The notes beneath the pieces were generated by a model. The model saw only the letters and a list, made by a program, of their open reading frames with translations, did not search any database and was not told where the DNA came from. Positions 10,884-30,257 of a stretch of DNA of 46,812 nt are shown in pieces; the first letter of the stretch is position 1, and each line of letters starts with the position of its first letter. Source of the DNA: Bacteroidota bacterium (lineage in GTDB: Bacteria > Bacteroidota > Ignavibacteria > Ignavibacteriales > Ignavibacteriaceae); the NCBI GenBank assembly GCA_021813585.1, contig JAKAJV010000106.1, positions 1 to 46,812 on the forward strand, written 5' to 3'. The translations under genes were made by a program, and so were the position numbers.

Positions 10884-11410
10884 ATTCTATTAAAGTAAAA
10901 ATGAAATTATAAGAAATTATTACCGGTTAAATTTAAATGAGGTATTTAAATAGCTGTTATATTAAAATGAATTAATAAATTGAACCATGCAAATTTACTT
11001 TATGGAAAAAATTTTTTACAGATTGTTGTTAATCTTAGTCTTGTTGTTTTACAACACAAAGCAGCATTCTTAATAAATTTTTAATTGCAATTTCTTACAG
11101 ATAAGCTTAACATCTTATTAAGAATATAAATGATTTTATATATTGGTGTATTTTATGATATATTCTTTACAAAACGAAAATAATTTAATACTTATACAAT
11201 TATTAATTTTTATTAAATATTACAAACTACTAACCCAAGTATCTATAATAATATCAATATTTCTACCTTTTAATAAAATAGTAAATCTTATTATCAATTC
11301 TTATCTTTCTATTTTCTTTAATATACTCATGGATTTATCCAAATTTCATAATTTGTCTTTCTTTGTGTCATTAGACAATTTGTAAAATATAACATATTAA
11401 TGCAGTTAAA
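10884..11410. other. AT-rich region without a convincing gene
   Basis: About 530 bp, clearly richer in A and T than the neighbouring genes. A short frame at 11002-11073 reads MEKIFYRLLLILVLLFYN and then stops; it looks like an orphan signal peptide and may be the dead start of another secreted protein. An 80-residue frame at 11143-11385 is almost all Ile, Leu, Asn, Ser and Phe, with no ribosome-binding site, and looks random. The low GC continues into the next gene. Confidence 0.4.
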
Positions 11411-12685
11411 ATGTTAAAAGTATATAAATATTTATTAGCTATTTTTTTTTATTTTTTCTTCTTCCGGGTTAATTGCACAATATAAACAGGCACCTGAGAT
11501 TTGGAGTAAACCTAAAAAAATCGCTTCTTTTAATTTAAGTGGATTTTATGCTAATGATCCTTCTGTTTCAATTGATGGGGAAAAAATATTTTTTATAACA
11601 GCAGCCCCCCCAATCCTACAAGTATTTATTATTCTGAGCTTACTGACTCCGGTTGGAGTAAACCGCAAATATTAAATTCTAATATTAATCAAAGTCTATC
11701 TCAAGCTCCCTCGATATCTTCTGATGGAGAAGAACTTTATTTTAGAAGATATGATGATGGAGGCTATGGCGATTGGGATTTATGGGTTAGTAAGTGGTCC
11801 AATAGTTTGAATGATTGGGGCATGCCTGAAAATCTTGGTCCAAATATAAATTCTTCTTCGATTGAATGGGTTGGATATACACCTGATAATAAATACTTTT
11901 ATTTTGCAAGGGTAAGTGGCTTTCTTACAGATTTAATGATTTCCAAATGGAACGATACAACACAACAATGGGGAACTTCAAGTTTGTTTGATAAACATAA
12001 ATTAAATATGGGAAATGATATTGATGGTATTACAATGACGCAAGATAAAAAGAAGCTTTATTTCTCAATGTATACATTTAATAATTATCCCAATCATGAT
12101 GAATCAGATATTTATGTTTCTTATTATGATTCAACAATAGGTTTTTACGGTACACCAATGCTATTAAATATAAATTCACATCCTGATAGTAGCATTCCAG
12201 AATATAATCCATGGAATCTTGGGCAAGATGTTTATCCTACAATAACTGGGGACGGAAAATATTTATTCTTTGGCTCAAATAGAAATGATACTAATTATAT
12301 TCACAATAAAAGCCCCATTTTTAATATTTATGAAAGCAGGTTATTAATTAATGAAAATGGGGATACAGTTACAAATATTAATGATTATAATAAGACCCTG
12401 ATTAATAAAACATTTAAATTATACCAAAACTATCCCAATCCTTTTAATCCAAGCACCAGCATATCGTTTTATTTATATAAATCATCAATGATTAAAATAA
12501 TTATTTATGATAATCTAGGAAGAGAGGTAAAGGAATTGGTAAATTCTTTTTTCCTTGCCGGTAATCATGTAATAAAATGGAACGGGAAAGATAGTTTTGG
12601 CAATAAACTATCATCCGGTGTTTATTATTATTCGCTTTTTACTGATAAAGAGAGAACTGTAAAGAAAATGATTATTTTAAAATAA
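11411..12685 (+). pseudogene. Beta-propeller (PD40-type) T9SS surface protein, frameshifted at T9 and C7 tracts
   Basis: The 3' part (from about 11612) reads through to a T9SS sorting domain (NYPNPFNPSTSISFYLY; LSSGVYYYSL; KKMIILK). Upstream, ATG at 11411 opens a signal peptide that runs off frame in a nine-T tract (11442-11450). Removing one T gives a clean signal peptide ending SSSGLIAQ. A second shift lies at a seven-C tract (11605-11611); adding one C restores the frame. Corrected length is about 424 residues. The body has propeller repeats (ISSDGEELYFRR, ITGDGKYLFFGS) like TolB/PD40 proteins, and the N-terminal WSKP motif is shared with the next gene. It could be a decayed gene, a phase-variable gene or an assembly artefact. 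Low GC. Confidence 0.75.
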
Positions 12686-12704
12686 AAATATACTGAGGTA
12701 TAAA

Positions 12705-13956
12705 ATGAAATTAAAATTTTATATTACTGTTTTTTTCATTTCCTTATCCATTAAAGCACAAGCACAAAAACCCTCCCAGTACCCGGAGGCGCCCGAAAGA
12801 TGGAGTAAACCGGAACCGATAAAGGTAATATTAGAAGACGATAGCATCGCACGTGCGGATGCACCAACCGTTACGGCTGATGGAAAAACCCTATACTTTG
12901 GCGGCTGGGGGGGTAATTTACCTAACTGACACAGGATGGACTAAACCTGTACGGGTACCTTATCTGTTTGATAATCTTTCAGAAGACCCGGTAATTTCAC
13001 CAAGTGGTAAAAGGTTGCTTTTTGATTGGTGGACAGGCGGTGGCTGGCAAATGTTTTATTCTGATTGGGACAGCACTATAAATGATTGGGGACCAGTAAA
13101 AGATCCTGGCGTACCAATCAATAACCCTCATCCATACTGGGGCATAAATTGGGGATGTGGAGTTCAGCCTGGATGTTTTCTGGATGATACCACACTAATT
13201 TTTACCATTTGCAAGGAAACATTTATCTCACATTGGCATAATGCAACAGCAACATGGGACACCGCCGTTTCCTGGCCTTATATATTTCCTAATTCAACTT
13301 GGGATGGATTAAGACTCGGACCCGATGCTGGTATTGCTGTTACGATCAGTAAGACAAAAGTCTACCAATCAATTTGGCATGACGATACAACACTCGATGG
13401 GAAAGTTTACTCCAATTATGATCTTACTGTAACGTACCGAGATACATCTCTTGACCGAGGTTATGGAAATCCATATACTTTAAATATATCACTCATGTCA
13501 GACAGCTTATATTTCACAGGTGTCTACTCAGGTAGATATGAAGGTTATCCCTCAATTACTGCAGACGGTAAAACCTTATTCTTTGAGGCTGACTATAATG
13601 GAAAGTTTACAATATACGAGTCGCATTTGCTGGTAGATGAAAATGGAGACACAATTACAAGTGTAGTAAATAAGTATCCGCAGGGTGTACCCGGTGGATT
13701 TAAGCTTTTTCCGGTATATCCTAATCCATTTAATCCTTCAACAACAATTACATATTATATGCCTGTAAGCGGCAGTATAAGGCTTCGCCTTTACGACATC
13801 CTTGGCAGACTGATAAGAACACTTGCAGAAGGGATGGAAACTGCAGGTGGACATCAGATAACATTAAACGGCAGTAGCCTTTCAAGTGGTACATATATCT
13901 TGCTTCTTGAAACACCGCAAGGTGTACTTACCTGTAAGATAACATTAATTAAATAA
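12705..13956 (+). pseudogene. Beta-propeller (PD40-type) T9SS surface protein, frameshifted at a G7 tract
   Basis: A paralogue of the preceding locus. ATG at 12705, with GAGGT upstream, opens a signal peptide ending KAQAQ, then APERWSKPEPI and the propeller motif APTVTADGKTLYFGGW. The frame is lost in a seven-G tract (12907-12913) and stops at about 12929. The other frame continues VIYLTDTGWTKPV and runs to a T9SS sorting domain (YPNPFNPSTTITYYMP; LSSGTYILLL; KITLIK). Deleting one G makes a 416-residue protein, close to the corrected 424 of its neighbour. Function is likely surface display or binding through a TolB-like propeller; no enzyme motif is visible. The frameshift may be real, reversible or a sequencing error. 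Confidence 0.75.
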
Positions 13957-13982: not shown

Positions 13983-16092
13983 ATGAAAACCAAACTTTTA
14001 CTTGCAATTTTATTTGTTGTTACAGTAGTTGTAAACGCACAGACAAATTGGCCGGGGGACAAGTGTTTATATCAAGGTTCAGGCAGCAATCAAAATACAA
14101 TAACTGCCTTAACACCTTCCACGGGTACAAAAAATATGATAATCATATTGTGTGTAGAACAAGGACAATCTACAGCCATTGCTGATGACCCCGATATTAA
14201 CAAAATAAAAAGTGAAATACCGGATTATATCAATAGAGCCACATTCGGTAACTGGCATATAAATATACTGGATGTGCTCGTTCATGACAACGATGGAACA
14301 ACTGCGCATGCATTTGTGCTGCCCGGCGATCATATTGAAAATTATTTTGTGGTTCCAGCATCCTGGGTTGAAAATGTATTGTCTCAAGCAGATAATATTT
14401 ATGATTTTAGCAATTATGATACCGATCATGACGGATATGTTTGTTAACAATACTATAACAGTAGCTTCTGGTGTTACATTAACAATCAATCCCGGCGCCA
14501 CATTAACTTTTGCACCCAACACAGGCATAACAGTTAATGGAACTCTTAATGCATATGAAGCTACATTTACAAGCAGCAGCACATGGAGCGGGATATATTT
14601 TGCAAGCGGAAGCGGCGGTACAATTCAAACCTGCACAATTCAAAATGTTCAAGCTTACGGCGGCGGCGCTATTAATATTTTTTATGCTTCTCCTACAATT
14701 GAATACTGCATTATTCAAAACAACACCGGTGTATGCGACGGCGTTACTGTCTCTAACGGGTCTCCATTTTTATTTGAAAATACAATTCGCAATAATTCAA
14801 GAGACGGAGTTTATTTATATTATTCGGGCGCATTATTATTGCAAAACAATATTACCGCTACTTCTTCAACCGGCAATGCGGCCGTTTATTGCGACTATTA
14901 TTCACAGCCGCTTTTTGCTTATACTTCACAGCAATATTTTGCCGGAATAAATACTCTTACCGGGGGATATTACGGTCTTTATGCAGGCAATAACTCAACA
15001 CCGGATGCAGGCACTGCAAGCATTGCTTATAATAACAGACTTTTAGGAAATACATACGCTAATGCTTACGCTGAACAAAATTCAACTGTATACGCAGAGT
15101 ATGATTGGTGGGGACAAGCGACGCCGGATGACACTAAGATTATTGCCAATACAGGCTCAACAATTTATTATACACCGTATTTAAGCCAGGATCCCGGAGC
15201 TGCTATTACACCTTCCTTTGCTTCGCCTCTTAATCATAAAAGCAAAAGTTTTCAATTAGTATCATCCATATCAAATACTCAAGACTCTACCGGTCTTTTA
15301 TTAAATGCAATGGAAAGCAGGGAGAAAAAGGATTATCAATCTGCAATTAATATTTATAAATCCATTCTCGAATCAAACTCTCCCTCCGGTGATGCTAATA
15401 TTGCACTGGCAGAATTGGGCAATGTTTATAAGGAAACTAAAGATAATTCGCTGCTTAATTATATTAATACTTTTTCACAGCACGATGGAAAATTTCAGGC
15501 TGAAGCGCTTGAGATATTATCCAACCTTAATTTAACGAATAGAGATTTACAAACAGCGTTAGCAGAAGATGATCAGTTAGTTTCTAATTTCAGCGGAACA
15601 ATACATGAAAAGGACGGCTTGCTTAATGAGTTTTATGTTTACTTATATTCACAGAAGTTTGATAGTGCAAAAACTGTTTTATCTGATATCCCGGCTTTAT
15701 ATGCAAACAATAAGGATGTACTACTAGCAAATTGGCTATTGGATAGGGCAGCCGGGTCATCCTCAAACCAGATTATTAAGCAGGGTACAAGTCAGTTAGC
15801 ATCTATGCAAGACAATAACACAGCACCAAGTAAGTTTCAAGTAATGCAGAATTATCCCAATCCCTTCAATCCATCAACGATAATACATTATGAGATCCCC
15901 AATGATGGGCTAGTTACATTAAGAATTTATGATGAGCTTGGAAGAGAAGTAAAGACGCTTGTCAATCAATATGAAAGCAAAGGGAGGTATGATATTAATT
16001 TCAATGCTAGTAATCTTGCAAGCGGAATATATTTTTACCGTTTAAATGCCGGCAACTATAGCGCAATTAAGAAAATGATTTTATTGAAATGA
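13983..16092 (+). pseudogene. Chimeric or frameshifted T9SS protein: peptidase-like N-terminus joined to beta-helix/TPR protein
   Basis: ATG at 13983 follows GGAGGT and opens a signal peptide ending VVVNAQ. The first frame (about 154 residues) resembles the start of an M6-type secreted metallopeptidase (MIIILCVEQGQ; NYDTDHDGYV) but stops at 14447 before any HExxH motif. The second frame, in register from about 14424, begins VNNTITVASGVTLTINPGATL, a beta-helix opening, then has helix coils to about 15190, a TPR-like helical part (15300-15750) and a T9SS sorting domain (NYPNPFNPSTIIHYEIP; LASGIYFYRL; KKMILLK). Both halves look cut within a domain, so a deletion that fused two genes is more likely than a single-base error. 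The sorting domain would be lost unless the ribosome shifts frame. Confidence 0.65.
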
Positions 16093-28688: not shown

Positions 28689-30257
28689 ATGAAAGAGAAA
28701 AAAATCCTCTGGGTTGATGATGAGATTGAGCTTTTACGTTCGCACATAATTTTTCTATCGGAGAAGGGCTTTGAAGTAGACACTGTAACCAACGGCGAAG
28801 ATGCTGTATCGTCTGTTAGAGAAAAAGAATACGATCTGATTTTCTTGGATGAAATGATGGCCGGTATGGGGGGGCTAGCTACTTTAAGCCAGATTAAAGA
28901 TATAAATCCCAACATACCGGTGGTAATGATTACCAAGAACGAAGAAGAGTCGTTGATGGACGAAGCCATTGGCGGGAGGATAATCGACTATTTGACGAAG
29001 CCGGTTAATCCGAGCCAGGTTCTTCTTGTTTGTAAAAAAATTCTCGAAGGCAAAAAAATATCCGGCCAGTACGCCGCAAAAGATTACCTGCAGGACTTCA
29101 ACCAGATTTCCCATGCATTCTTAAATGACATGGACTTTGAAGAGTGGAAGGATATTTACTTAAAGCTTGTAAGCTGGGATGTTGAGCTCGACTCGCATCC
29201 GGAAGTTGATCTGCGCCAAACTTTGAACGATCAAAAGAAAGAGGGCAACAAGGAATTTTCAAAGTTCGTTGAAAGGAACTACAAAGGCTGGCTGAATTCT
29301 CTAGGCGATGCTTATACTCCGACTCTGTCCCCAGAGATTGTACCGAAATACGTTATCCCTCACCTGCATGATTCCAATTCATCGGTATTCTTTTTTGTAA
29401 TTGATTGCCTGCGTTACGACCAGTGGCTGATTATGGAGAACCATTTGAGAGACTTATTCAGAATCGAAAAGGAATTCTATTATGCTATTCTGCCAACTGC
29501 TACGCCATATGCAAGGAATTCTTTATTCAGCGGCCTGTTCCCGTCGGAAATTGAAAAGCATTACCCCGACTTATGGAGCTCCGGTGATGACGACGAAAAG
29601 AGCATGAACAAATATGAAAAAGAGCTTCTTCAAAAACTTTTGGAAAGGAAAAGAATAAAATTACGGAATGAGCTGAAGTACATTAAGATTATAGACCCGG
29701 AAGTAGGAAGAAATTTTGAGCAAAATATACTGTCATATCAAAACACTCACCTAACTGCGGTTGTTGTAAATTTCTTAGACATGATTGCGCACGGCAGGTC
29801 GGATTCCGATCTTCTTAAAGAAATTGCGCCCGATGAGCCGGCGTACAGGTCTTTAACCAATACATGGTTCACTCACTCGTCTCTGCTCGGCTCGCTTAAG
29901 GCACTGGCAAAAATTAAAAATGCAAAGATTGTTATTACGACAGACCACGGAAGCATCAGGTCGTTAAGAGGCGCTAAAGTTCTAGGCGACCGCGAGGCAT
30001 CGGTTAATTTGAGATTTAAGTTCGGAAGAAATCTTAAGGTGGATGAAAAGCACGCAATCTATATAAAGAATGCGGAGGAATACAAACTGCCTAAACGCGG
30101 CGTTACAATAAATTATATTATCGCCAAGGAAGATTTTTATTTTGTATACCCGACAGATTATCATAAGTATCTAACATATTATAAGGATACTTTTCAGCAC
30201 GGCGGTATTTCTATGGAGGAAATGATTTTGCCCGTAATTACGATGGAACCGAAGTAA
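28689..30257 (+). CDS. porX: PorX-type response regulator with PglZ domain
   Basis: A 522-residue two-domain protein. Residues 1-125 are a receiver domain: acidic Asp10 and Asp11 (LWVDDE), phospho-acceptor Asp54 (LIFLDEMM), and conserved Lys in YLTKPVNP. The rest is a PglZ/alkaline-phosphatase-superfamily domain with metal-ligand motifs VIDCLRYDQW, TPYARNSLFSG, LDMIAHGRSD, TTDHGSIR and QHGGISMEEM. PorX with the kinase PorY controls T9SS gene expression in Porphyromonas and relatives, and the PglZ domain has nucleotide phosphodiesterase activity. The gene follows sprA and is 3 bp from tsaE, a pairing I recall as common in Bacteroidota. GAAAGGGAG precedes the ATG. Confidence 0.93.
   Translation: MKEKKILWVDDEIELLRSHIIFLSEKGFEVDTVTNGEDAVSSVREKEYDLIFLDEMMAGMGGLATLSQIKDINPNIPVVMITKNEEESLMDEAIGGRIIDYLTKPVNPSQVLLVCKKILEGKKISGQYAAKDYLQDFNQISHAFLNDMDFEEWKDIYLKLVSWDVELDSHPEVDLRQTLNDQKKEGNKEFSKFVERNYKGWLNSLGDAYTPTLSPEIVPKYVIPHLHDSNSSVFFFVIDCLRYDQWLIMENHLRDLFRIEKEFYYAILPTATPYARNSLFSGLFPSEIEKHYPDLWSSGDDDEKSMNKYEKELLQKLLERKRIKLRNELKYIKIIDPEVGRNFEQNILSYQNTHLTAVVVNFLDMIAHGRSDSDLLKEIAPDEPAYRSLTNTWFTHSSLLGSLKALAKIKNAKIVITTDHGSIRSLRGAKVLGDREASVNLRFKFGRNLKVDEKHAIYIKNAEEYKLPKRGVTINYIIAKEDFYFVYPTDYHKYLTYYKDTFQHGGISMEEMILPVITMEPK

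Follow-up and report, generated by a model that had tools for sequence, protein, structure and literature searches.

Frame changes at homopolymer tracts and an internal deletion in three adjacent genes for type IX secretion cargo proteins of an Ignavibacteriaceae bacterium

Three adjacent genes for exported proteins

The stretch of DNA considered here, referred to as the window and comprising 46,812 nucleotides in its entirety, contains three neighboring genes with predicted products that resemble proteins exported by the type IX secretion system (T9SS). Genes 1 and 2 are paralogous T9SS propeller genes, as the preliminary description of the locus had proposed from its sequence: the proteins of both match PF07676 (PD40) and PF18962 (T9SS sorting tail) above cut-off, and TIGR04183 is matched above cut-off by gene 1, gene 2, and the 3′ part of gene 3. 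The T9SS machinery components SprA and PorX are encoded within the window, and the C-terminal sorting domain together with the presence of machinery in the genome identifies genes 1 and 2 as putative type A cargo. The domains are those of intact T9SS type A PD40 cargo proteins and M6-like metalloproteases in relatives (PF07676, PF18962, TIGR04183, TIGR03296), but all three of the window genes are broken, and the M6-like core is deleted. The G+C content is 29% for gene 1, 41% for gene 2, and 40% for the sampled genome. Upstream of gene 1, the interval 11000-11499 is strongly A+T-rich (20% G+C) and is possibly the edge of an acquired block.

Table 1. Features of the locus, with a control tract and the poly-C sites found elsewhere
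Feature	Position	Strand	Basis
Gene 1, PD40 beta-propeller T9SS cargo with two frame changes	11411..12685	+	
T9 in gene 1 signal peptide, likeliest site of first frame change	11442..11450	+	stops of both frames
C7 where gene 1 changes frame for the second time, within an early propeller loop of variable length	11605..11611	+	
Gene 2, paralogous PD40 T9SS cargo with one frame change	12705..13956	+	
G7 at frame change of gene 2, in the loop that holds the C7 in gene 1	12907..12913	+	frames read against relatives
Gene 3, 5′ remnant with the signal peptide and the beginning of the M6-like part	13983..14447	+	
Gene 3 junction: out-of-frame internal deletion, ~1.0-1.1 kb absent relative to G041 and G039	14430..14447	+	
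Gene 3, 3′ remnant in other frame: beta-helix, TPR-like stretch, T9SS tail	14440..16092	+	
Control: in-frame G7 inside intact PorX	28868..28874	+	
Poly-C sites, this genome (G000)	L163:4480 (contig C29), L164:4587 (contig C116), L126:1385 (contig C104)		
Poly-C sites, other genomes	L236 (G001), L237 (G115), L238 and L240 (G130)		

The reading frame of gene 1 passes from frame 0 (counted from 11411) to frame 1 and back to frame 0, and that of gene 2 passes from frame 0 to frame 1. The preliminary description had assigned these breaks to a T9, a C7, and a G7 tract; the tracts and the frames are as it claimed when rechecked in the sequence. The shifts were placed with a profile built from 10 homologues. 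In gene 1, the profile is matched by frame 1 at 11442-11600 (E 2.6e-12) and by frame 0 at 11582-12682 (E 9.3e-105), the two matches overlapping by 19 bases, and in gene 2 by frame 0 at 12705-12899 (E 7.9e-13) and by frame 1 at 12919-13953 (E 1.6e-84). The match boundaries put the second switch of gene 1 just past 11600 and that of gene 2 between 12899 and 12919, so the shifts at the C7 and G7 are located to approximately 20 bases. At these two tracts, the frame is moved by an indel at a repeat tract, as it is in a contingency locus. The first shift of gene 1 is bounded by the stops of both frames to approximately 11440-11480 only; here the T9 is favored as the likeliest site, although a T6 adjoins it directly. 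The frames of genes 1 and 2 together span nearly the entire profile, and beyond these shifts no further stop or frame lesion was detected in either gene by comparison with it.

The third gene has lost its protease core

The preliminary description also held that the other long genes of the window are free of such breaks, which is contradicted by the adjacent gene. Gene 3 (13983-16092) lies in two frames that switch at approximately 14430-14447, a join that is free of long runs. In relatives, the gene encodes one long protein comprising an M6-like protease, a beta-helix, and a T9SS tail, with a single open frame of 1046 residues in G039, 1029 in G041 (both measured from stop to stop), and 1156 in G073; the homologue in G038 is open for 795 residues, up to the contig end. 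A PD40 gene directly precedes the homologue of gene 3 in G039, G041, G073, and G038. Both window remnants map to one frame in G039 and G041, where the matched parts are separated by approximately 1.1 and 1.0 kb, respectively, and by nothing in the window. Window gene 3 is consequently without some 330-370 residues, HExxH site included, and what remains is out of frame. The motif HELGH falls within the absent segment in both the G039 and G041 homologues, and HELGH or HESGH was read by eye in three homologues of gene 3; an M6 domain with HExxH was sought in window gene 3 and is absent. Measured against TIGR03296, the G039 homologue gives E 1.5e-19 and 71 bits, under the cut-off of 110.8. Gene 3 of the window is dead, and irreversibly so.

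Distribution and loss in relatives

Ten homologous PD40 genes in nine relatives are all open. None of the 10 contains a G/C run of at least 7, the longest being 6, so that conservation of the tract in homologues, as would be seen for a contingency locus, is not observed. Among the matches listed, those to gene 1 in G006, G012, G033, G034, G038, G039, G041, and G053 are stop-free and 395-507 residues in length. The PD40 protein is patchily distributed, with 8 of 80 genomes of the family matching at E ≤ 1e-12 when the genome under study is included; the match in one of the eight, G071, is an OmpA-type protein by eye. Only genes 1 and 2 match within their own genome at this threshold, and no further copy was found, whereas for gene 3 the sole match in this genome to a piece of the G039 M6-like protein is the gene's own N-terminal part. 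A scan of genome contigs for a second strain yielded one 40% relative. The genes are thus broken where their homologues are open, with no intact copy found elsewhere in the genome, as is expected of pseudogenes born of slippage.

The same genes have been lost elsewhere. The PD40 homologue of G061 (L207/L222) is interrupted by a TAG in frame, by a frameshift, and by a further stop, and the stretch examined has no A/T run of at least 8 and no G/C run of at least 6. In G006, which belongs to the same genus, an open PD40 gene is followed by a 154-residue M6-like remnant (L219:5600-6800), identified by direct comparison with the N-terminal parts of the M6-like proteins of G041 (E 7e-16) and G073 (E 3e-18). 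This remnant ends near the endpoint of the window remnant, and the T9SS tail then continues in another frame. No M6-like match in G006 had come from the search with the G039 piece, and the match between the two remnants is weak (E 2e-4); both points count against the reading of decay.

Homopolymer runs in the genome

G/C runs of at least 7 are scarce, there being 26 distinct examples in 4.54 Mb once 36 listed overlapping matches are merged. Classification by a codon model plus reading by eye, rather than by the model alone, places 13 in frame within coding sequence, 3 at a frame change, 1 at a putative start (C2:7448, equivalent to L070:7448), and 9 in non-coding DNA. The three at frame changes, namely 11605, 12907, and C88:26844 in a lipoprotein gene, are all in genes that by eye encode a signal peptide. 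The in-frame class includes runs in genes for GlnRS and mannose-1-phosphate guanylyltransferase (both named by eye), and 2 of its 13 members are at contig ends and are apparently copies of one gene. It also includes the G7 of PorX, an intact gene, so a tract by itself does not signal a break. At a further member of the 13, C104:31188 (L126:11188), in what by eye is a DNA methylase gene, the SPPYN motif falls on a C7 and an in-frame stop follows some 40 codons on.

The third shifted tract is a C7 in the coding sense, at L123:6844 (G000:C88:26844-26850), that lies just past a lipoprotein signal peptide recognized by eye. No Pfam or NCBIfam family is matched by the lipoprotein. Stops are present in 5 of 21 listed matches of its family, its own included, and the copy in G004 is by eye out of frame within the signal peptide, where there is no long run.

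Other classes of run were surveyed in a sample of 1.2 Mb. Of the A/T runs of at least 8, 112 are coding and in frame, 17 were flagged as frame switches, and 108 are non-coding or at an edge, the last being counted as a class. On reading of the 17, one was apparently real (L126:999), and the others were gene ends, starts, or non-coding. The former, a T8, marks a frame change within a LuxR-type gene that lies behind a poly-C element and that seems to contain an earlier stop as well. For G/C runs of 6, 42 are in frame, 2 were flagged (both gene boundaries), and 9 are non-coding, while the same direct test of G/C runs of at least 7 in the sample gave 4 switches (11605, 12907, L070:7448, and L123:6844), 4 in-frame runs, and 1 non-coding run. 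It placed the T9 at 11442 in the non-coding or edge class, which indicates that shifts near gene ends can escape. A scan of the 1.2 Mb for frame switches with the codon model had been set aside: it produced 420 raw switches, those listed being judged mostly gene boundaries or antisense shadows, and a filter that kept 46, which were skimmed, lost the case at 12907 because a start codon is nearby. For this reason the runs were tested directly.

The shifted share of coding G/C runs of at least 7, 3 of 16, can be compared with 2 of 114 for long A/T runs (the window T9 and L126:999; Fisher p 0.013) and with 0 of 42 for G/C runs of 6 (p 0.018), both comparisons being post hoc and setting the whole genome (16 runs) against the 1.2 Mb sample (114 and 42 runs). 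An order-1 Markov model for each gene, fitted on the runs themselves, gives the probability of a G/C run of 7 as 0.11 for gene 1 and 0.19 for gene 2, and the genome rate of 26 in 4.54 Mb corresponds to approximately 0.7% per gene. Some 0.2 chance pairs of G/C runs of at least 7 within 1.3 kb are expected, and so their clustering alone is not strong evidence. An intergenic palindrome whose arms are C7-C8 and G6-G7 runs is also present in at least two copies (L162:4515-4560 and L172:4397).

Poly-C promoter-like elements elsewhere in the genome

A poly-C tract in a promoter spacer is a known means of switching transcription. The longest G/C runs in the genome are two of C10 and one of C9, and all three stand directly behind an exact TTGACATTTA; the poly-C sites of this genome are at C29:28979, C104:21385, and C116:27586, on contigs C29, C104, and C116. 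Across 164 genomes of the order, TTGACATNTA followed by at least 7 C occurs at 7 sites in 4 genomes, all of them with TTGACATTTA and a tract of C8 to C11, and the reversed control pattern occurs in none of the 164. A box read by eye 15-19 bases past TTGACA is TATATT at six sites and TACTTT at one, and the outer flanks differ between genomes. The sites are upstream of LuxR/GerE-type genes in the genome under study (three genes, with GerE matches, one of them broken) and in G001 (by eye); that of G115 precedes a C39-type transporter gene (by eye). Judged by this arrangement, the sites look like candidate phase-variable promoters with poly-C spacers, and they are a stronger lead for phase variation than the tracts of the window.

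Origin of the lesions

Slippage-controlled loci are well-known from Neisseria, Haemophilus, and Campylobacter, in which simple repeats serve as contingency loci. The window resembles these in having indels at G/C runs in genes for surface proteins but differs in that its tracts are neither conserved nor long and in that a neighboring gene is irreversibly broken. Literature searches on type IX secretion with phase variation, judged by titles, did not find a T9SS homopolymer case, and those on homopolymer tracts, phase variation in Bacteroidetes or Ignavibacteria, and poly-C promoters gave no direct precedent by title. A closer parallel is offered by the autotransporter genes capC and capD of Campylobacter, for which the authors, in the available part of their report, consider gradual conversion into pseudogenes a better account than phase variation through poly-G (PMC7168839). 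That conclusion concerns mainly capC, in which the tract is upstream of the gene, and draws on a comparison of many strains. Surface-protein genes, poly-G tracts, patchy spread, and inactive copies are common to both cases; the differences from capC and capD, as that part describes them, are another secretion system there and, here, a single genome with tracts not common to homologues (PMC7168839).

We consider it probable that the window holds a patchily distributed T9SS operon that has recently decayed, its small lesions having arisen by slippage. The starting state would have been an operon for exported proteins, in which an M6-like protease/beta-helix gene came after two PD40 propeller genes. 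Slipped-strand indels would have struck genes 1 and 2 at their most slippage-prone sites, and an out-of-frame internal deletion would have removed the protease core of gene 3. Slippage at the tracts, to which the preliminary description had looked as a means of switching surface proteins on and off, thus stands as the probable source of the small lesions of genes 1 and 2, but reversible switching is not supported, given the absence of G/C runs of at least 7 from homologues, the two shifts in gene 1, the deletion in gene 3, and the losses in relatives. Taken together, the three genes form an operon-like trio in which all members are broken and the third is unable to flip back; with its central part gone, the group looks more like a recently dying operon than a reversible switch. 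That the trio is one operon, that its state is fixed, and the order of events are what we infer from this pattern. The lesion load is one shift in gene 2, two in gene 1, and a large deletion in gene 3. Counting against decay, genes 1 and 2 are otherwise clean, which also fits an off phase, and the C7 and G7 share one loop of the two paralogues, which is suggestive of selection for the tracts.

These same observations, together with the coincidence of all three shifted G/C runs with signal-peptide genes, would be explained if genes 1 and 2 were genuine contingency loci subject to phase variation and merely sampled while off, with gene 3 having decayed independently. This is a doubtful proposition, as the tracts are only 7 bases long, gene 1 has two shifts, the downstream partner is dead, and relatives have lost the same genes without long runs. 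A wider version, in which poly-G/C contingency serves the lineage within T9SS and lipoprotein genes and also in the spacers of LuxR-type promoters (TTGACATTTA-C8-11), would make the window operon a switched-off member of a slippage-controlled surface program; we regard it as unlikely. Sequencing or assembly error at homopolymers, combined with a collapsed assembly for gene 3, appears less likely than an off phase of genes 1 and 2. It draws on the position of all three small shifts on or close to runs, on the draft state of the assembly (142 contigs), and on the raised shifted share of long coding G/C runs, but the 112 long A/T runs and 42 G/C runs of 6 that stay in frame, and the 13 of 16 long coding G/C runs that do likewise, are unlike a generally homopolymer-indel-prone assembly and make sequencing error unlikely; the preliminary description had similarly disfavored error. 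Among the listed genome matches, moreover, no other spans the gene 3 junction. Single-base runs are possible slippage sites, and programmed ribosomal frameshifting or transcriptional slippage at those of genes 1 and 2 would yield full-length protein from the present sequence. Full-length gene 1 product would, however, require two events in opposite directions, and neither the G/C runs of 7 nor the frameshift arrangement is conserved in homologues; this explanation is highly improbable.

Implications

Recent decay, the reading preferred here, accords with what is seen in other members of the group. The losses in G061, in G006, and in the lipoprotein family indicate that the genus sheds accessory exported genes by several routes, slippage at runs among them. 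The locus provides a worked case of the distinction between an off phase and a dead gene, in which a neighboring gene and the relatives alter the reading that would be drawn from the tract lesions alone. The comparison also maps the pairing of a PD40 gene with an M6-like/beta-helix T9SS gene in several relatives, and the analysis of the window points to better candidates for phase variation in the same genome.
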